A stretch of 64,000 nucleotides of DNA from Terriglobia bacterium (GTDB lineage Bacteria > Acidobacteriota > Terriglobia > JAIQFV01): assembly GCA_020072965.1 (NCBI GenBank), contig JAIQFY010000014.1, positions 1 through 64,000 on the forward strand, read 5' to 3'. The notes under the pieces are model-generated. The model did no database searches and had not been told where the DNA came from. It was given only the letters and a program-made list of their open reading frames with translations. Of this stretch, positions 25,898 through 36,011 are shown piece by piece; the first letter of the stretch is position 1, and every line of letters begins with the position of its first letter. The translations under genes were made by a program, and so were the position numbers.

Positions 25898-27796
25898 ATG
25901 GACTATCGCGACCTATTTTCAGATGACACCAAGTCTCAGATCCGGCGGATTCCTCTAATTGAGCGCGGGCTCGCCGGGGTGTTCGTCGTGTTACTGGCGG
26001 GCTTCGCCTTTCTTCAGCTCGTTGAATCACCGCGATATCTTGACCTGGCCGAACGCAACCGCGTCCGCCTGATCCCCCTGGTCGCTCCGCGGGGACGCAT
26101 TCTGGATCGAGAGGGCCGCCTCATTGTGGATAACCGTTCCGCGTACTCGGTGGCCCTGATGCGCGAGAACGCCAAGAATCTCAACCTCTCAATCGATGTG
26201 ATTGCCGAGGGCCTGGGGTTGGACCGGGCTTCGGTGCTTGATCGCATCACGAAATTCAAGCATACCCCCTCCTTTCAGCCGATCATCATCAAGGAAGATG
26301 CCGGGAGTGCCGATGTGGCGTTTGTCGAGGCGCACCGCCTTGAGTACCCGGAGCTGGAAGTCATCCTCCTCCCGCGGCGCAACTATCCCCGGAACGGAAT
26401 GGCGGCACACCTCCTCGGCTATGTCGGGGATGTGACGCCGGAGATGCTCGGGAGCAAGGAATATGCCAATCTTCAGGCGGGAGACGTCGTGGGAAAGTCA
26501 GGCGTCGAGTTCACCTACAATGACTTTTTGACGGGTAAAGACGGGTTTAAACGCGTCATCGTCAATAGTCGCGGACGCGAGATGGGAAAACTCGAACAAG
26601 TGGATCCCGTCCCCGGCAAGCAATTGAAATTGACCGTGGACTTGGATCTGCAGCGAGTCGCCGAGGAATCGATGGCCGACCGCTCCGGGGCGGTCGTGGT
26701 CCTGAACCCGCAGACGGGCGAAGTGCTGGCGATGCTTTCGCATCCGGCTTACGACCCCAATGAATTTGCGGGGCGGATGGGCGCAGCGGAGTGGCAGGCC
26801 ATCCAGAACGACCCGAACCGTCCCCTGCTCAATCGGGCCATCCAGGCCCGCTTTTCACCGGGTTCTGTCTTCAAGATCATTATGGCCACGGCGGGCATGG
26901 AGGCAGGTACCCTGACTCCCGCGACTTCATACCATTGCGCGGGGTCCATTGTGCTCTACGGAAATATGTTTCATTGCCACGGCGGCCACGGCCATGGAAC
27001 CGTGGGACTGCATCAGGCCATCGTCAATTCCTGCAATATCTTTTTTTACAACGTCGGCAAGACCCTCGGCATTGACCGGATCAGCTACTACGCCCACAAG
27101 CTTGGGCTCGGCGACAAGACCGGCATCGATTTGCCCAACGAGGATCCCGGTCTTATCCCTTCTCCCGAATGGAAAAGGAAAGTCCGTTATCAGCCGTGGT
27201 ACCTGGGCGAGACCATCTCCGTCTCCATCGGGCAGGGAGCCGTCGGGGTTACCCCCTTACAACTTGTCCGTTCGCTGGGCGGCATTGCCATCGGGGGGAT
27301 CTTTCGCCAGCCGCACCTGGTGGACTGGCAGCAAAACGAGGGGTTCACAACACCAAACACGAACCTGGCCGATGAAAAATTTGATTTGAGACCGGCCACG
27401 GTCGATGTGATCACGCGAGGGATGTGGGGCGTGGTGAATGAAGGGGGGACCGGAACACGGGCGCGGCTCCCCGATGTCGAAGTCTGTGGTAAGACCGGGA
27501 CCGTCCAGGTCGTTGGCAGCGGGGCCAAGGTCAAGCAAACGGCGGGAAGTGAATTTGGAAACCACGGCTGGTTCGTGGCGTTTGCCCCTCGCGAGCACCC
27601 CGAAATAGCCGTGGGAGTAATCGTCGAACACGGCGGCTATGGCGGCGACATTTCCGCCCCCATCGTGCATGAGATTCTCAAGACCTATTTCGACAAAAAG
27701 CATATTAAGCCGTCTCACGGAGCGCCCGTCCAATTGACCGCGATGCCGAATGAATTGGCAGTACGCCGGCAGGGTGCAAGAAATATCGAGAACTGA
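25898..27796 (+). CDS. mrdA: Penicillin-binding protein 2 (transpeptidase of the elongasome)
   Basis: The protein has 632 residues. One N-terminal anchor (LAGVFVVLLAGFAFLQLV) precedes the pedestal domain (RGRILDREGRLIVDNRSAYS; AHLLGYVGDV; GKSGVEFTYNDFLTGKDG). The transpeptidase domain carries the nucleophile motif SVFK (Ser323, Lys326), SCN (Ser378-Asn380) and KTG (532-534). The GDKTGIDLPNEDPGLIPSPEWK stretch is typical of the PBP2 subgroup. It cross-links new peptidoglycan during rod elongation with RodA as glycosyltransferase partner, encoded directly downstream. It begins 25 bases after mreD. Confidence 0.96.
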   Translation: MDYRDLFSDDTKSQIRRIPLIERGLAGVFVVLLAGFAFLQLVESPRYLDLAERNRVRLIPLVAPRGRILDREGRLIVDNRSAYSVALMRENAKNLNLSIDVIAEGLGLDRASVLDRITKFKHTPSFQPIIIKEDAGSADVAFVEAHRLEYPELEVILLPRRNYPRNGMAAHLLGYVGDVTPEMLGSKEYANLQAGDVVGKSGVEFTYNDFLTGKDGFKRVIVNSRGREMGKLEQVDPVPGKQLKLTVDLDLQRVAEESMADRSGAVVVLNPQTGEVLAMLSHPAYDPNEFAGRMGAAEWQAIQNDPNRPLLNRAIQARFSPGSVFKIIMATAGMEAGTLTPATSYHCAGSIVLYGNMFHCHGGHGHGTVGLHQAIVNSCNIFFYNVGKTLGIDRISYYAHKLGLGDKTGIDLPNEDPGLIPSPEWKRKVRYQPWYLGETISVSIGQGAVGVTPLQLVRSLGGIAIGGIFRQPHLVDWQQNEGFTTPNTNLADEKFDLRPATVDVITRGMWGVVNEGGTGTRARLPDVEVCGKTGTVQVVGSGAKVKQTAGSEFGNHGWFVAFAPREHPEIAVGVIVEHGGYGGDISAPIVHEILKTYFDKKHIKPSHGAPVQLTAMPNELAVRRQGARNIEN

Positions 27797-27848
27797 GCCC
27801 CTCCAGACATCGAGAGGGACTATTGATTGGGAGAAACCGAAAGTCGAC

Positions 27849-28937
27849 ATGGCAAAACGGGGGTCCATTGCTGATTTCGATTGGTGGCTGCTGCTGGCCG
27901 TTCTGGCGCTGGCAGGTATCGGCCTGATTGAGATCTACAGCTCCACGATCCACACCAAGTACGCCGGCCTACATATCCGCCAGCTCTACTGGGTGCTGTT
28001 GGGACTGGGGTTGATGTGGATCGCCGTGCTCATCGACTATCACTTCATTATTGAACATGTGCCCCTGCTCTACTTATTGGGGCTGCTGCTCCTGATTCTG
28101 GTGATGGTCATGGGACAAACCAACCTCGGATCCAAGCGGTGGCTGGGGTATGGCGCCTACTCGATCCAGCCCTCCGAGGTGTTCAAACTCATTCTCGTTT
28201 TGACCTTGGCGCGATATTTCAGCGAGCGCCGCAACCGGGAGCTCAGTTGGATCGACCTGTTCCAAGTGGGAGTCCTGGTGATCGTCCCTTTCGGCTTGAT
28301 TCTGGCTCAGCCCGACCTGGGAACAGCGCTGACTTTCTTTCCGATTCTGGCCGTGGGGATGTGGCTTGCGGGCGTTCGCTGGAAGATGGTCGCCATAGTG
28401 GGCCTCGCCGTCGCCCTGGTTCTGCCCTTGGGATGGTTTGTGCTCAAACCCTACCAGCGGGACCGTCTCATGACGTTCGTTCACTCGGATGCGGACCCGT
28501 TGGGTCGAGGCTACCAGATTGCCCAATCCAAAATTGCCGTGGGTTCGGGAGGACTGCTCGGCAAAGGATTCCTGAACGGCAGTCAGAACCGCCTCGGGTA
28601 TGTCCCGCATCGTCACACTGATTTTATTTTTTCCGTCGTGGCAGAAGAACAGGGCTTCCTGGGAGTGGCCATCGTGCTATCGTTGTTTGCCTTCGTTATC
28701 TTCAGGTCGATCGGACACGCGCGAACGGCGCGGGACCGGTACGGAGTCTTCATCGTCATGGGCGTGGTCGCCCTGTTTGCGTTCCATGTCATTGTCAATG
28801 TGGGCGTGATCATCGGCTTTATGCCGGTTACAGGGATCCCGTTGCCGCTGGTGAGCTCCGGGGGCACCGCGATCCTGACGACATTCCTCGCCCTCGGTTT
28901 GGTGCTCAACGTCCGCATGCGGCGATACGTTAATTAA
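27849..28937 (+). CDS. rodA: RodA, SEDS-family peptidoglycan glycosyltransferase
   Basis: The 362-residue polytopic protein has about ten membrane segments. SEDS features are DFDWWLLLAVLALAGIGLIE at the start, GSKRWLGYGAYSIQPSEVFK in the first half (SIQPSE motif), an extracellular loop with DADPLGRGYQIAQSKIAVGS, and VAEEQGFLG plus GIPLPLVSSGGTA near the end. The Asp in the W-(x)n-D region of SEDS proteins is needed for glycan polymerisation. It pairs with the PBP2 encoded upstream. ATG 27849 is used; an upstream in-frame start would overlap mrdA and add 33 non-family residues. Confidence 0.95.
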   Translation: MAKRGSIADFDWWLLLAVLALAGIGLIEIYSSTIHTKYAGLHIRQLYWVLLGLGLMWIAVLIDYHFIIEHVPLLYLLGLLLLILVMVMGQTNLGSKRWLGYGAYSIQPSEVFKLILVLTLARYFSERRNRELSWIDLFQVGVLVIVPFGLILAQPDLGTALTFFPILAVGMWLAGVRWKMVAIVGLAVALVLPLGWFVLKPYQRDRLMTFVHSDADPLGRGYQIAQSKIAVGSGGLLGKGFLNGSQNRLGYVPHRHTDFIFSVVAEEQGFLGVAIVLSLFAFVIFRSIGHARTARDRYGVFIVMGVVALFAFHVIVNVGVIIGFMPVTGIPLPLVSSGGTAILTTFLALGLVLNVRMRRYVN

Positions 28938-28938
28938 A

Positions 28939-29115
28939 TTAGTCGCGTTTTGATTTGAGCGGTTGTTCATCAAACGGATTGCGATCCTGTTCCTGCTTGA
29001 CCCCACGGGTATCCTCCGGGTCCACTCTCTTCAAGAGCCAATCACCCCCCCGGCCCGTGGTGAAACTCCAGCCGTCCTGAAAGCGATAAAATATGCCGTG
29101 TCCATTCGAGGGCAT
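28939..29115 (-). CDS. Possible 58-residue protein antisense to the rodA-radical SAM gap
   Basis: On the minus strand an ATG at 29115 opens 58 codons to TAA at 28939-28941, ending one base from the rodA stop. The product begins MPSNGHGIFYRFQDGWSF and ends NPFDEQPLKSKRD. It has balanced composition, three aromatic residues around FYRFQDGW and many charged residues in the second half. Third codon positions are mostly G or C, as in neighbouring genes. No Shine-Dalgarno sequence is visible; a TATAAT lies 3 bases before the ATG, too close for a normal leader. I do not recognise it. It could be a small conserved protein or a chance frame. Confidence 0.42.
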   Translation of the reverse strand: MPSNGHGIFYRFQDGWSFTTGRGGDWLLKRVDPEDTRGVKQEQDRNPFDEQPLKSKRD

Positions 29116-29128
29116 TTGATTATATAAT
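29099..29128 (+). promoter_or_regulatory. Candidate promoter of the radical SAM-RNase E/G unit
   Basis: A perfect TATAAT at 29123-29128 lies 18 bases after a weak TGTCCA at 29099-29104. The radical SAM gene starts at 29218, so the leader would be about 80 bases. The -10 sits in ATTATATAAT, which is palindromic, so a minus-strand -10 is equally possible. Confidence 0.42.
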
Positions 29129-29217
29129 CACGGCCCAAAGCTCTATCCCTCTGACACTGGATCGCGGGAGGTCTTGTGCTCCCGGATAGATTGACCTGGA
29201 GGGCAAAAGGTCTCTGT

Positions 29218-32100
29218 ATGGAAACTTCGTTCGATCTCGACCGACTCATTCAGCAGGTGGAAAAACCCGTCCGGTACCTGGGGGGGGAGTGGAACCAGGT
29301 GGTCAAGGACCATGCCGCGGTCGACGTCGCGATGGCCCTCTGCTTTCCCGACATTTACGAGATCGCCATGTCCCACATGGGGGTCCGGATCCTTTACTCC
29401 CTGTTGAACAAGCGACCGGATGTGGCCTTCGAGCGATGTTTTACCCCCTGGGTCGACATGCTCGAGAAGATGCGGGAATACAACCTGCCGCTCACATCCC
29501 TGGAAACCCGGACGCCGCTCGATCGCTTCGACATTGTCGGATTCTCTCTCCAGTATGAAATGTCGTTCACGAATATCCTGCTGATGCTGGAACTGGGCGG
29601 TATTCCGCTCCGTGGCGCAGACCGCGACCTGAGCTTTCCGCTGGTGGTTGCCGGGGGGCCGGTTGCCCTGTCGCCGGAACCGATCGCCGACTTTATCGAC
29701 GCTTTTGTCATTGGAGACGGCGAGGACACGCTCGTTGGACTGATCGATTGTGTCCGAGACTGGAAGCGCTCGGGAGACGGGATGAACGCTCATGCCGACA
29801 AGCTCCAGCTGCTGCGCGAGCTTGCCAAGCGGCCCGGCATCTATATCCCTGCCCTTTACGACGTGGCGGTCCATCCGCTGCATGGCCTGCAAGTGGTTGT
29901 GCCGCGCGAGTCCGGTCCGGCTGTGAAGCGGCCCGCCGGCTATGACTCCGATTTCTACCAAGCCTTCCTGGACCGGGCGCGATTGACGGAGTGGGCTGTG
30001 CCGCCCTTCCCCATCGTCCGGCAATACGTTGAGAACATCTCCGAGTATCCTTTTCCGACTGATCTCATCGTCCCGTTCGGTGAGATTGTCCATGACCGTA
30101 TCTCCGTGGAAATCGCCCGCGGGTGTCTTGATGGCTGTCGTTTCTGCCAGGCCGGCTACACGTACCGGCCTTTACGGGAGCGCTCTATCGATGACATTGT
30201 TCGAACCATTGTCAAAGCGAGCGAACAAACAGGATTCGATGAAGCGACCATTGCTTCCCTCTCCACGGCCGATTACTCCTGCTTGAATCCGCTGATGGAA
30301 AAATTGATGGATGAGCTGGAGCACCGAAAGATCGCCTTGTCGCTCACTTCCATGCGGGCCGATTCGATCACTCCCGAAATAACTTCGCAGATGAAGCGCG
30401 TTCGCAAGACGGGTCTCACTCTGGCCCCCGAAGCCGGGACCCAGCGCATGCGCGATATCATCAACAAGAACATTACCGAGGAGTCGGTGCTTAAGAGCGC
30501 CGCGGCGGCTTTTGATGCGGGATGGGATCTCATCAAGCTCTATTTCATGATCGGGCTTCCCATGGAAACCGGAGAGGATGTCCGGGGAATTTTCGAGCTG
30601 GGGAAGAAGGTCCGGGATCTCAGTACGCAGTCAAAGCGGTCGGTCAACATCAATCTTTCCGCTTCATCCTTCATTCCCAAGCCGCACACCCCGTTTCAAT
30701 GGTTTGGCTTTTGCGATTTGGAGGAAATCAAGGAGAAGCAGCGGCTGTTGCGCTCGTGGTGCAAGCCGGCCCGGATCAATTTCAAGCATCACCATCCCGA
30801 AACCTCGCAGATGGAGTGCGTCCTGTCGCGCGGGGATCGCCGCCTGGGCCGCGTCATCGAGCGGGCGTATCGAAGCGGGTGTCGCTTTGACGGCTGGGAC
30901 GACCATTTCCGATATGACCTGTGGGTCCAGGCGTTTGAACAGGAAGGGATAGACTTTCGGCAGTACCTGAAAGCGCTCCCGGTATTCGATTGCACAGAAT
31001 GGCGCGCCTCCACCGAGGCGGAACGGAAAGACTGTACCGCGTATATCAAAGCCCTCTCGACGATCCGGGTGAAACCGCTGGAAGCCCCCGTCGACTGGAC
31101 GCCGCTGCCCTGGGATCACCTCGACAACCGCGTCGACAAGAAGTTCATTGTCTGGGACTTGAAACGAAGCCTCCAGGCCCGGGTCTCTCCCACCTGCGGT
31201 CCTGACCTGTGCTATAATTGCGGCTTGGAGTGTGAATTTGATGGGGCGGGCCCTGGGGTCATTCAATCGGTAGAGTTGAAGAAGCCCGGAAATCAAGATA
31301 GCACCCACGGTCAGATTCAAGATCGCGATTCGGGCATAGAGGTTGAAATCCCCGCCGGGCCGATCCAGAGCCCCGCAGCAGGACGATATCGCGCCTCATT
31401 TACGAAAGTTGGTCGATCCAAGTTTCTCTCGCACCTCGATCTGATGCGGCTGATCCAGCGCGCCTTTCGTCGTGCGGGGATTCAATTGAAATATTCTCAA
31501 GGCTTCCATCCGCAGCCGGTCGTTTCGTTCGGTCCTGCCCTGTCGGTCGGGATTGAGGGCACGGCCGAGCTTCTGGATTTCGAAGCCATGGTCGGGTTGG
31601 AGGAACAGTCGTTTCTATCGGTCATCAACTCCGTACTCCCTGACGGAGTCCGATTCACCCGGTTAAAGCCAGTTGACCTGCACACGCCCGCGCCGTCAGC
31701 CATCGTCAAGGCAGCACGATATCAAGTGGAACTGGCCGCGGACGGGACCAGTACGTCGGGCAGGCCAGATAACGGGACCCAGGGAAATCTGAGTTACGAG
31801 TGGGTGGCGCGGCAGTTGGCTGCGTTTCGTGCCGCCAAATCCTTCGTGATCCAGCGAAAAAAGAAGGACCGGATCGTCCCAACGGATCTCCGATCTTTCG
31901 TAAGGAAAATCGAGGTCAAGGAATCGTCTGGTCGCCTGTTGCTCGAGATCGAAATCGAGATGGGCGAGCGCGGTTCGGTCAGACCTCAAGAAGTTCTAAA
32001 ATCAATCTTGAACATTTCAGACGAGAACTTTCACACGATCAAGCGCGACGCGCTTTTCGCCGAGCGAAATGGAACTTACTCTCCAGCCTTTTCCAGTTGA
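29218..32100 (+). CDS. TIGR03960-type radical SAM protein fused to a DUF2344 (TIGR03936-type) domain
   Basis: The protein has 960 residues from ATG 29218, which has AAAGG 7 bases upstream. Residues 1 to about 650 are a B12-binding-like plus radical SAM protein: EWNQVVKDHAAVDVAMALCFP at the start, then ARGCLDGCRFCQAGYTYRPL with the CxxxCxxC cluster motif, and LTLAPEAGTQRMRDIINKNI. CGPDLCYNCGLEC gives a Cys cluster near 670. From about 725 a DUF2344 domain follows (RYRASFTKVGRSKFLSHLDL, YSQGFHPQPVVSFGPALSVG). In many bacteria these two parts are separate neighbouring genes placed beside rne/rng, as here. The reaction is unknown. A role in RNA modification or cofactor chemistry has only context support. 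Confidence 0.9.
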   Translation: METSFDLDRLIQQVEKPVRYLGGEWNQVVKDHAAVDVAMALCFPDIYEIAMSHMGVRILYSLLNKRPDVAFERCFTPWVDMLEKMREYNLPLTSLETRTPLDRFDIVGFSLQYEMSFTNILLMLELGGIPLRGADRDLSFPLVVAGGPVALSPEPIADFIDAFVIGDGEDTLVGLIDCVRDWKRSGDGMNAHADKLQLLRELAKRPGIYIPALYDVAVHPLHGLQVVVPRESGPAVKRPAGYDSDFYQAFLDRARLTEWAVPPFPIVRQYVENISEYPFPTDLIVPFGEIVHDRISVEIARGCLDGCRFCQAGYTYRPLRERSIDDIVRTIVKASEQTGFDEATIASLSTADYSCLNPLMEKLMDELEHRKIALSLTSMRADSITPEITSQMKRVRKTGLTLAPEAGTQRMRDIINKNITEESVLKSAAAAFDAGWDLIKLYFMIGLPMETGEDVRGIFELGKKVRDLSTQSKRSVNINLSASSFIPKPHTPFQWFGFCDLEEIKEKQRLLRSWCKPARINFKHHHPETSQMECVLSRGDRRLGRVIERAYRSGCRFDGWDDHFRYDLWVQAFEQEGIDFRQYLKALPVFDCTEWRASTEAERKDCTAYIKALSTIRVKPLEAPVDWTPLPWDHLDNRVDKKFIVWDLKRSLQARVSPTCGPDLCYNCGLECEFDGAGPGVIQSVELKKPGNQDSTHGQIQDRDSGIEVEIPAGPIQSPAAGRYRASFTKVGRSKFLSHLDLMRLIQRAFRRAGIQLKYSQGFHPQPVVSFGPALSVGIEGTAELLDFEAMVGLEEQSFLSVINSVLPDGVRFTRLKPVDLHTPAPSAIVKAARYQVELAADGTSTSGRPDNGTQGNLSYEWVARQLAAFRAAKSFVIQRKKKDRIVPTDLRSFVRKIEVKESSGRLLLEIEIEMGERGSVRPQEVLKSILNISDENFHTIKRDALFAERNGTYSPAFSS

Positions 32101-32483: not shown

Positions 32484-35400
32484 ATGTCAAAGGAAATGAT
32501 CATCAATACGTCTCCCCAGGAGACGAAGGTCGCGATACTCGAAGAAGACCAATTGGTCGAAGTCCACATCGAACGGAGTCTCGAACAAGGCCTGGTTGGA
32601 TCCATTTACAAGGGCCGCGTCACTAAAGTCCTCCCCGGCATGCAATCCGCGTTCGTGAATGTTGGCCTGGAACGCGACGCCTTTCTTTACGTCTCCGATT
32701 TCTTCGAAGATGCTGAGGAATACGATTCCATCGTGGCCACGGTGGAAGACAAGATCGAAAAGCTTGAATCAATCCCGGGTGAGGTGTCCTTGCTTGCCCC
32801 CTCCCCGCTGGTCATAGAAATCCCCACCCGGCTCGACCCCTCCGAACCTCCGGCCCCTCCCTCTGCCGTTATGCCAGGCGGAAAGGCACCTCAAAATAAG
32901 GTTCCTCCCATTGCTCAGGCGGCTGTGCTGGCGCAACCGATGCCAGTGCCTGAAAAGGTGTTGGAGGCTGGACAGGATCTCGAAAAGGGCGCCGCTGCGG
33001 CAACCGGCCAGGGATCCCCCGAGTCCGCGCAAAAATCCCAAGGCGAATTGGACCGTCAATCGCGGGGCAGGTACGGACGCCGCCGGGGACGCCGTCGCCC
33101 CTGGGAGCGTCGAAAGGAAGAACCATCGCGAAGTCTTCCACAGCCCCCGGCCCAGCCACAAACCTCGGCCCCAGCCGTGGTAGTAACCCCGCCGGCCCCT
33201 CCAGTGATGAGTACTTTGACTCCGCTTCCCGGAGAATCCCTCTCGAAATTCCAGCAATCTCCGTTGGTTTCAGTTGAAGAACAGCCGCAAGCGCGTGATC
33301 TCGAACCCCTCGAACCGGCCGTTCTTCCCGAGCCGGCGGCATCCTCAACGGAGGGCGTGACGGAAACTCTTCAAGTCACGCCGCCTGAACCTACCCCCGC
33401 GGAAACCCAGGGAGCGACGACATCTCCGACATCGGGCCAGGCTGTCGGGATGTCGTGGGTTCAAGAGGCACCGCTGATTCCCAATCAACCCGAAACGTTC
33501 GAACAGGTGGAGAGAATCTTATCGATCCTGGATGTCCAGGTCGAATCGGTGCAGCCTCCGACAAAGCTGGAACCAGCCGCCCCACCGGCCGACCTGCTGG
33601 AAAAGGATTCCATCATCCCTCTCGATGTCATTGTCCCCGGTACCCCGGAACCCGTGAGCCCTCCGGTCACCGAAACGGCCGCCTCAGTCAGTGAACCCGT
33701 TGAATTGACTGAAGAGCCAATTTCGCTCCTGCTGGAAGAGTCAGAACCTTTGGATGATTCCCCCATCGTAGCGAGTATCACCACCACGGACTCCGCCGCG
33801 ATGGTACGAGAGGCCCAGTTCACCGGATTGGATATGCCGGAAGCGATCGATGCATGGCGGGAACCGGTTGAACCTGTTTCTTTAGAATCAGCGGACTCAA
33901 CGGGTTCAGGAAGCGCACCGGCAATTCCCACTTCCGAAGTCCATGAGGGATCAGAGCCCACGGGAAGGCAGACAGCAGAAGGTCAGGAAGAGTCCAGGAA
34001 GCAGGGAGCTCTCCCTTTTGCGACGGCCACTTCCGAACCTCCCAATAGCGAAAGTGAGGAGACCGCTGAGCAACCCGCGGTCACATTTGGAGCAACGGTC
34101 TCGGAGCAGGACATACTCTTGAAGCCGGGGTCGGAAAGGGGTGAGACGCTCGCTGCGGCCCTGCCCCACGTTGAATCGCCGGAACAATCCGATGAACCGC
34201 GTATACAAGGGCCTGAACAACCCATCCTCGAGGAAGCCAGAGGTGTGGAAGCGAGCACCAAGCCACCCGAGCCCGCGGAGCAGATTACTGAAACTCCAAC
34301 AGTGGCCGGATTGGGCTTCCAGGTGACAGGTCCGGAAACAAGACTTCCTGAAGTGCCCCCCGTCGCTACTTCTGTAGTCGCGGAGAGACCGGCATCTTTA
34401 ACCGCCGCGACATCCAAGCCTCCCTTCAAAGAAGAAGCCAAACGGGAAAGAGTTGAGTCACGCTTTGAAAGATCCTCCACCTCGAAATTATCTCCCGCCG
34501 CACGACGATTCGAAGCAAAAGGGGGGAAAGCCGCTGCACAACTCGCTCCCCAACCCGAGGTCTATGGACCACCGACGCCTTACGAGTACATGACCGACGT
34601 AGAAAAGTCGGAGTACAACGCCCGTCGCGCCCAGGAGAAAACCTCGGCCAAGATCCTCGACTCCTCGCGTAAGTTAACGGCGCCTCAGCCCCGGGATTTC
34701 GGTTTCCAGCGGGGCCGGCGTGGGCGGCGTGGCCGCAGCAAAAGATTCGCCGATCATGAGACCCCATCCGAACAACCTGCGCCCCGGGAGGAAAGACGGC
34801 CGACCGCGCGGCCGCTCATTGCCGATCTGCTGAGGGAAGGCCAGGAAATCCTGGTCCAGATCGCCAAGGAGCCGCTTGGAAAGAAGGGGGCGCGCATTAC
34901 TTCGCATATCGCGCTGCCGGGCCGCTATCTTGTGTACATGCCCACGGTGGATCACATCGGCGTTTCACGAAAGATCGGCAGTGACGAAGAGCGCCGCCGC
35001 TTGAAACGCATCATTAATGAATTCGGGGAAGGCCTTCCCGGAGGCTTCATCGTGCGCACGGCGGGTGAGGGCCGGACCGAAGAGGAATTGAAGCAGGACA
35101 TTCGTTTTCTGGCTAACACTTGGACCGACATCCGATCCCGCGCGGAGAAACGGGCTGCCCCGGCGCTGCTCCATCGCGATCTCGGCGTGCTCGAGCGTAT
35201 TCTGCGCGATCAGCTCTCTTCGGAATTTACCGCCATCCGCCTTGATACAGAAACCGAGTATGCCAAGGTTCTCGAATTCGTGAACCAGTTCCAGCCTGCC
35301 CTGGTCGGGCGCGTCAAGCTTCATTTCAAAGACACTCCCATTTTCGAGGAGTACGGCGTGGACCATGAGATCGAAAAGGCCCTGAAGCCCAAGGTGTGGC

Positions 35401-36011
35401 TGAAGTCGGGCGGATATATCGTCATCAACCAGACCGAGGCGATGGTGGCCATCGACGTCAACACCGGCAAGTTTGTCGGCAAGACCACACGGCTCGAAGA
35501 TACCATTGTGAAGACCAACATCGACGCGGCCAAGGAAGTGGCACGCCAGATCCGCCTTCGGGACATGGGCGGAATCATCGTCATCGACTTCATCGACATG
35601 GAGGAGCGCAAGAACCGGCAGAAGGTGATTCAGGCGCTGGAAGAGGCCATGCGGCAGGATCGAGCCCCCTCGAAGATTCTTTCATTCAACGATTTCGGCC
35701 TCGTGGCGCTGACTCGAAAGCGAGTCAAACAGTCGCTCGAAAAGATCCTCATGCAGCCATGCGTCTTTTGTCAGGGTCATGGCCTCGTCAAGAGCGTGCA
35801 AACGGTGTGCTACGAAATCCAGTCCGAGGCCAAGAAGATGGCCCCCCTGCTCGATGGAAGAGAGATACGGATCCGCGTTCACCCGGAAGTGGCCAGGGCA
35901 TTAAAAACGTCTGAGCAAACCGTCGTCTCAGAAATCGAAAGCCACACCCGGAAGGATGTGATCATCAAAGCCGACCCCCAAACGCATCAGGACCAGTTTG
36001 AGATCTTTTGA
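32484..36011 (+). CDS. RNase E/G family endoribonuclease with a very large insertion in the S1 domain
   Basis: The protein has 1175 residues from ATG 32484. Residues 1-84 give the start of the RNase E/G fold and the first half of the S1 domain (GSIYKGRVTKVLPGMQSAFV, ERDAFLYVSDF). From about 85 to 775 the chain is low-complexity, rich in Pro, Glu, Ser and Thr, with Arg/Gly patches (RYGRRRGRRRPWERRK; RGRRGRRGRSKR). The S1 fold then resumes (GQEILVQIAKEPLGKKGARIT) and is followed by the 5'-sensor and DNase I-like region. The catalytic Asp pair is Asp991 (VAIDVNTGKF) and Asp1035 (IVIDFIDMEERKNR). The zinc-link is Cys1093-x2-Cys1096. It should cut single-stranded, AU-rich RNA from 5'-monophosphate ends. 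The insertion is probably disordered and may bind RNA or degradosome partners. Confidence 0.93.
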   Translation: MSKEMIINTSPQETKVAILEEDQLVEVHIERSLEQGLVGSIYKGRVTKVLPGMQSAFVNVGLERDAFLYVSDFFEDAEEYDSIVATVEDKIEKLESIPGEVSLLAPSPLVIEIPTRLDPSEPPAPPSAVMPGGKAPQNKVPPIAQAAVLAQPMPVPEKVLEAGQDLEKGAAAATGQGSPESAQKSQGELDRQSRGRYGRRRGRRRPWERRKEEPSRSLPQPPAQPQTSAPAVVVTPPAPPVMSTLTPLPGESLSKFQQSPLVSVEEQPQARDLEPLEPAVLPEPAASSTEGVTETLQVTPPEPTPAETQGATTSPTSGQAVGMSWVQEAPLIPNQPETFEQVERILSILDVQVESVQPPTKLEPAAPPADLLEKDSIIPLDVIVPGTPEPVSPPVTETAASVSEPVELTEEPISLLLEESEPLDDSPIVASITTTDSAAMVREAQFTGLDMPEAIDAWREPVEPVSLESADSTGSGSAPAIPTSEVHEGSEPTGRQTAEGQEESRKQGALPFATATSEPPNSESEETAEQPAVTFGATVSEQDILLKPGSERGETLAAALPHVESPEQSDEPRIQGPEQPILEEARGVEASTKPPEPAEQITETPTVAGLGFQVTGPETRLPEVPPVATSVVAERPASLTAATSKPPFKEEAKRERVESRFERSSTSKLSPAARRFEAKGGKAAAQLAPQPEVYGPPTPYEYMTDVEKSEYNARRAQEKTSAKILDSSRKLTAPQPRDFGFQRGRRGRRGRSKRFADHETPSEQPAPREERRPTARPLIADLLREGQEILVQIAKEPLGKKGARITSHIALPGRYLVYMPTVDHIGVSRKIGSDEERRRLKRIINEFGEGLPGGFIVRTAGEGRTEEELKQDIRFLANTWTDIRSRAEKRAAPALLHRDLGVLERILRDQLSSEFTAIRLDTETEYAKVLEFVNQFQPALVGRVKLHFKDTPIFEEYGVDHEIEKALKPKVWLKSGGYIVINQTEAMVAIDVNTGKFVGKTTRLEDTIVKTNIDAAKEVARQIRLRDMGGIIVIDFIDMEERKNRQKVIQALEEAMRQDRAPSKILSFNDFGLVALTRKRVKQSLEKILMQPCVFCQGHGLVKSVQTVCYEIQSEAKKMAPLLDGREIRIRVHPEVARALKTSEQTVVSEIESHTRKDVIIKADPQTHQDQFEIF

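Follow-up and report, generated by a model that had tools for sequence, protein, structure and literature searches.

Descriptions of RNase E put its scaffold in a C-terminal (or flanking) tail, and S1 inserts have been reported from alphaproteobacteria and plants at lengths of 50-150 aa. Among the tailed enzymes, Pseudomonas aeruginosa RNase E binds RNA through arginine-rich short linear motifs (SLiMs), while separate SLiMs bind PNPase or RhlB (PMC11964227). In Caulobacter RNase E, RhlB is bound by the fragment with the S1 insert (PMC4245959), and the condensates of this enzyme are driven by charge blocks (PMC10412687). Plant chloroplast RNase E carries an S1 insertion as well, and its deletion in Arabidopsis greatly cut activity (PMC4245959). 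For the Fibrobacteres/Acidobacteria group, a 2011 survey gave an enzyme of 511 aa, with no degradosome predicted (PMC3071783).

The window analysed here is a stretch of 64,000 nucleotides from a Terriglobia bacterium (assembly GCA_020072965.1, contig JAIQFY010000014.1). It contains the genome's only PF10150 gene, a single open frame running from ATG at 32484 to the stop at 36011 and coding for 1175 aa (32484..36011; this and all features below are on the + strand). Membership of the RNase E/G family is clear from the PF10150 score of 343 bits against a cut-off of 25.5. Pfam places RNase_E_G at residues 811-1081 and the C-terminal domain at 1092-1174, and detects no domain within the insert described below. 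In NCBIfam, the RNase G profile scores 520 bits, which falls below its own cut-off of 594 bits, versus 278-300 bits for the RNase E profiles. Catalytic Asp991 (35454..35456) and Asp1035 (35586..35588) correspond to D303 and D346 in the alignment to E. coli RNase E. This DNase I-like aspartate pair is invariant in 49 homologous sequences, and the two cysteines of the zinc-link CVFC (Cys1093 and Cys1096, 35760..35771), a hallmark of RNase E/G, are conserved in the homolog alignment. The catalytic core is thus intact, as the initial annotation had stated.

Besides this gene, the genome has one PNPase, one RNase J and one strong DEAD-box match. RNase Y was not found in it, and no RNase Y above cut-off was found in 40 of 41 genomes of the class. 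RNase E/G is probably a main endoribonuclease of this organism. The only class genome with RNase Y above cut-off is G024, where possibly contamination is involved. Contig VFZK01000186.1 (L031/L133) bears the title Acidimicrobiia (Actinobacteria), but its RNase E/G is the same as that of G024, a genome placed in the window's acidobacterial class; the title looks wrong. Upstream neighbours of the gene in the window (27750-32100) code for RodA and a B12-binding radical-SAM fusion protein of unknown function (TIGR03960/TIGR03936).

The most conspicuous feature of the protein is an insertion inside its S1 domain. Residues 1-73 (32484..32702), which comprise N-terminal RNase-H-like strands and the first half of S1 and end in YVSDF, align by phmmer to E. 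coli RNase E as far as about residue 73. S1 resumes at residues 776-813 (34809..34922; RPLIADLLREGQEILVQI...), as placed by PDB alignment and an ortholog strand. In the phmmer search against PDB, E. coli RNase E was matched in two stretches, query 3-73 and 775-1158, corresponding to E. coli residues up to ~73 and from ~86. Since these stretches lie only ~12 residues apart in E. coli, the window protein has ~690 extra residues inside S1, and they fall between the third and fourth S1 strands (residues 74-775, 32703..34808). Residues 85-775 (32736-34808) consist of 14% P, 13% E, 11% A, 9% S and 7% T. Both the alignment and this composition bear out the earlier description of ~690 low-complexity residues within S1. 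Its boundary has to be shifted: YVSDF occupies residues 69-73, not 84, and the insert proper begins around residue 74 with an acidic, partly helical stretch. The other coordinates were right.

Structure and disorder prediction had been proposed as a check on this placement. In the AlphaFold model of the window protein most of the insert has pLDDT <50 (long stretches of residues 98-694 and 726-805), with two short helices. Because S1 itself is modelled poorly (pLDDT 35-50 at 51-77 and 781-805), this model is of no use for S1 placement, and an ortholog with a shorter insert (L128, 283-285 aa) was folded with 105 relatives. In this model the insert is disordered and S1 strands on both sides of it exceed pLDDT 90, with strands 41-50, 55-59 and 66-69 at 95-98 and strand 360-367 at 93-97. 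Superposed on the S1 domain of E. coli alone (1smx), the model gives Z 12.0 and rmsd 2.6 over 78 aligned residues in its range 39-389. This alignment spans the insert, which indicates one confident S1 fold split between strands 3 and 4. An insert located outside S1, the outcome that would contradict the initial annotation, is ruled out by the PDB alignment and the ortholog model together. The insert is inside S1 and, according to these models, disordered.

A disordered, charged insert occupies the same S1 place in Caulobacter crescentus RNase E (PDB 4OXP, Voss et al. 2014, PMC4245959). The window protein thus shares with the Caulobacter and plant type a charged, disorder-prone insertion in this loop, and the L128 model aligns to 4OXP across the split S1 and the 5'-sensor with Z 20.7 over 179 residues. 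However, Caulobacter-type enzymes combine inserts of 50-150 aa with a C-terminal scaffold, whereas the window protein has ~690 aa and no tail. The plant chloroplast insertion, as described in PMC4245959, is also much shorter. RNase G, the best-scoring core profile, likewise lacks a C-tail, but its S1 loop is short.

We wondered if such a long insert is a real feature of the gene. The same architecture is present in a congener (insert of 735 aa), in a genome of the same family (599 aa) and in 42 further sampled proteins of the class, with insert lengths of 283-882 aa within the class. All these genomes were assembled separately. The other five frames of the insert contain 11-26 stops, and comparison with the congener gives the insert a dN/dS of 0.30, against 0.017 in the core and 0.019 in residues 1-84. 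The insert therefore evolves as coding sequence. A frameshift or assembly join is ruled out by this mode of evolution and by the same architecture in independent genomes, and repeat expansion by the lack of tandem repeats. The split S1 is real. Comparison of insert length and short motifs across related genomes, which had also been proposed, shows that the insert is retained and that short motifs in it are conserved.

The insert has a recurrent layout. It starts with an acidic N-flank (residues 74-95, 32703..32768; FEDAEEYDSIVATVEDKIEKLE), which adjoins S1, is conserved across the class as FFEDxEEYD and contains a helix predicted at 77-95 with modest confidence (pLDDT about 60-67). An acidic flank is found in short-loop relatives too. 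Further on lies Arg-rich patch 1 (residues 191-206, 33054..33101; RQSRGRYGRRRGRRRP), and Arg/Gly-rich patch 2 (residues 742-755, 34707..34748; QRGRRGRRGRSKRF) lies close to the S1 resumption; these are the two patches that the initial annotation had noticed. Patch 1 (residues 190-206) shows dN = 0 within the genus, where synonymous sites are well diverged. All 45 class inserts have one basic peak in the first half (patch 1 in the window protein), which starts a median of 93 residues after the beginning of the insert, and one in the second half, at a median of 30 residues before S1 resumes. In shuffled inserts two basic peaks occur in a mean of 2.9 of 45. The stretch between the basic patches is net negative in 45/45 class inserts. 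In the window protein most of it is formed by an acidic Pro-rich spacer of variable length (residues 259-735, 33258..34688; dN/dS 0.36). Arg-rich regions and conserved short motifs in a disordered, non-catalytic stretch are the features by which degradosome scaffolds are recognized, and both are present here.

The second predicted helix (residues 699-726, 34578..34661; pLDDT 83-89) is conserved only in the window protein, L111 and L112. Since it is restricted to the window's own family, it stands outside the general design; it might be a family-specific binding element within the disordered insert. Conversely, many class members, but not those of the window's own family, have another recurring peptide, G[FLI]P[ED]SK[YF], just after patch 1.

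The strongest feature of the insert, absent from the initial annotation, is a short linear motif, LPGESLxK(Y/F). In the window protein it reads LPGESLSKF (residues 248-256, 33225..33251), with the class consensus [IV]LPGES[LI][AS]KY, and it ranked above everything else in a reference-based motif scan of the insert. The pattern LPGE[ST][LFI]x[KR][YFH] occurs in 41 of 45 class inserts (48 copies, versus 0 in 200 shuffles), and the looser LPGE[STF][LIF] in all 45; these inserts, representing ten families, are related, so the counts are not independent trials. To judge uniqueness genome-wide, a DNA pattern for LPGESLxK[YF] was run over 31 whole genomes. It matched 28 places in 27 of them, all at RNase E/G loci and once per genome, save for two copies within one insert (G018), while the reversed pattern gave 0 matches in the same 31 genomes. 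The peptide is essentially unique to the RNase E/G gene across these genomes. The DNA of all 28 matches differs and the peptide is kept, which indicates that selection acts on the peptide. In agreement with this, dN of the peptide within the genus is 0, and dS for peptide and patch 1 is 0.62-0.69.

A PDB search with the motif gave no match, the motif is unlike the PNPase- or helicase-binding SLiMs described in the literature examined, and none of the top literature matches linked LPGESL to RNase E. In the L128 model, confidence rises slightly at LPGESLAKY (~203-211), to a pLDDT of about 50-58, with a helix at 208-211. AlphaFold does not place the peptide confidently on the enzyme, the pLDDT being too low to read docking.

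Different peptides are found in inserts of other acidobacterial lineages. In the lineage of Blastocatellia locus L033, [FL]ER[IV]xD[DE] is present in 23/23 inserts with 39 copies in total (shuffles average 0.01), one to three per insert and often about 50-60 residues apart. Its occurrence in L183, L202, L206, L214-L226 and other rows of the lineage might reflect a multivalent docking motif. In one subclade of a third lineage, ILPxx[LFIW] occurs twice, with a spacing of about 28-35 residues, in 12/12 genomes (rows L188, L194, L196, L199, L205, L236-L241 and L244). In the remaining members of that lineage, nothing but Arg-rich stretches and a weak peptide resembling WNISAETER was seen. Both patterns were chosen after viewing the sequences and are thus descriptive, though they are far above shuffles. 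It is conceivable, at slightly less than an even chance, that an acidobacterial lineage evolved an S1-internal scaffold once and that its sub-lineages installed different peptides, leading to different degradosomes. This estimate also spans the alternative that one partner is recruited through different peptides.

To trace the origin of the insert, S1 gap, N-terminal start and C-tail were measured with profiles and a tree of 130 RNase E/G cores was constructed. RNase E/G is present in 40 of 41 genomes of relatives and in 255 of a phylum-wide sample of 297 genomes. All rows combining a long S1 gap with no tail (57/57) fall on one side of a branch with SH-aLRT 98, and form a single acidobacterial clade; the tree is a quick one, absence of the insert outside the clade is judged on the sample, and class names are anchored on few named loci (L032 Acidobacteriia, L033 Blastocatellia). 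In the wider sample, acidobacterial inserts measure 122-882 aa, and in every S1-insert row examined the protein ends 0-2 aa after the core. Forty additional genes follow the same pattern of insert without tail.

The insert clade branches from within a set of acidobacterial enzymes that are short, lack a tail and resemble RNase G, and its nearest acidobacterial relatives have loops of 32-52 aa and no tail. The insert thus seems to have been gained by growth of an existing loop. Tailed acidobacterial enzymes (C-tails of 140-344 aa) group apart from these, and their S1 loops measure 21-29 aa. On the basis of this tree position, a move of the scaffold from the C-terminus was rejected. The initial annotation had suggested that such a move may have occurred; the relocation is not supported, while the rest of its scaffold reading (disorder, S1 site, Arg patches, spacers, motifs, no tail) agrees with our results. 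In alphaproteobacterial rows, which have a clade of their own, an insert of 88-182 aa is combined with a tail. The nesting of the acidobacterial clade among short-loop enzymes speaks against common descent of the two kinds of insert.

Three short-loop acidobacterial RNase E/G genes (L185, L187, L191) are preceded by ~370-600 in-frame open codons; the usual start lacks a Met in L185 and L191, and an N-terminal scaffold is possible in all three. A Clostridia-labelled RNase E/G (L062) has a C-terminal tail of ~643 aa.

By analogy with the Caulobacter and Pseudomonas precedents, the insert most likely acts as an internal scaffold of degradosome type, in which the patches would bind RNA and the peptide would dock a partner; we consider this reading fairly probable. 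The loop between S1 strands 3 and 4 would have grown into a disordered arm of ~690 aa. Its two Arg-rich patches would hold RNA beside the S1/5'-sensor entry of the active site, and the acidic Pro-rich spacer, free to vary in length, would keep them apart. LPGESLxK(Y/F) would dock one specific partner protein, for which PNPase, the single strong DEAD-box helicase match and RNase J would be the obvious candidates in the genome. Against this reading, constraint on most of the spacer is weak, and this part could be filler.

The acidic parts of the insert allow another interpretation, namely that it is mainly an autoregulatory gate. Acidic stretches would mimic RNA and cover the S1/5'-sensor groove, until RNA on the Arg patches or a partner on LPGESLxKY released them and opened the enzyme. 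In Caulobacter 4OXP a helix of the S1 insert enters the RNA site, where RNA mimicry was proposed for its acidic residues (PMC4245959). The conserved FFEDxEEYD flank with its predicted helix beside S1 and the net negative spacer of all 45 class inserts would suit such a function. However, tens of residues would suffice for it, not 280-880, the acidic flank is shared with short-loop relatives, and neither structure model places acidic parts confidently on the core. We regard the gate as unlikely.

Equally improbable is a largely neutral disordered expansion, in which a surface loop that tolerates changes drifts in length and has hardly any function besides solubility. The range of lengths within the class, large indels even between members of one family and a spacer dN/dS ~20 times that of the core are what it would predict. 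On the contrary, every complete protein of the clade that was measured has kept the insert, its two-patch charge layout is conserved, and two sister lineages have conserved peptides of their own. Together with a peptide that is near-unique in the genome and has dN = 0, this makes the filler view hard to square with the data.

The insert may also form condensates, with which its charge-block pattern is compatible; that it is chiefly a former of such bodies (BR-bodies) by alternating charge blocks, with the peptide secondary, would agree with the blocky +/- pattern of all class inserts and with phase separation of Caulobacter RNase E (PMC10412687), but is the least probable interpretation, as it leaves unexplained a near-invariant, essentially single-copy 9-residue peptide.

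The internal scaffold reading also allows comparison with the C-terminal scaffolds of E. coli and Pseudomonas (PMC11964227), which are likewise disordered and have Arg-rich RNA-binding motifs and short partner-binding motifs. In contrast, these are located after the catalytic domain and that of the window protein inside S1, and the motif sequences are unrelated. Paired Arg patches and the LPGESLxKY peptide distinguish the window insert from that of Caulobacter as well. Insertions of 50-150 aa in this S1 loop are already known from alphaproteobacteria and plants. New are the insert size of up to 882 aa in a separate, tail-less acidobacterial clade, the two-patch layout and the lineage-specific peptides of acidobacterial inserts. 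In the open-access literature, to which our search was confined, we found no description of an acidobacterial S1-insert RNase E/G and no paper on RNA turnover in Acidobacteriota. In much of this phylum, the S1 domain of RNase E/G carries 122-882 residues close to the entry site of RNA, and the peptides conserved in them are class-specific. An RNA-decay scaffold thus seems to have grown inside the enzyme and not on its tail.
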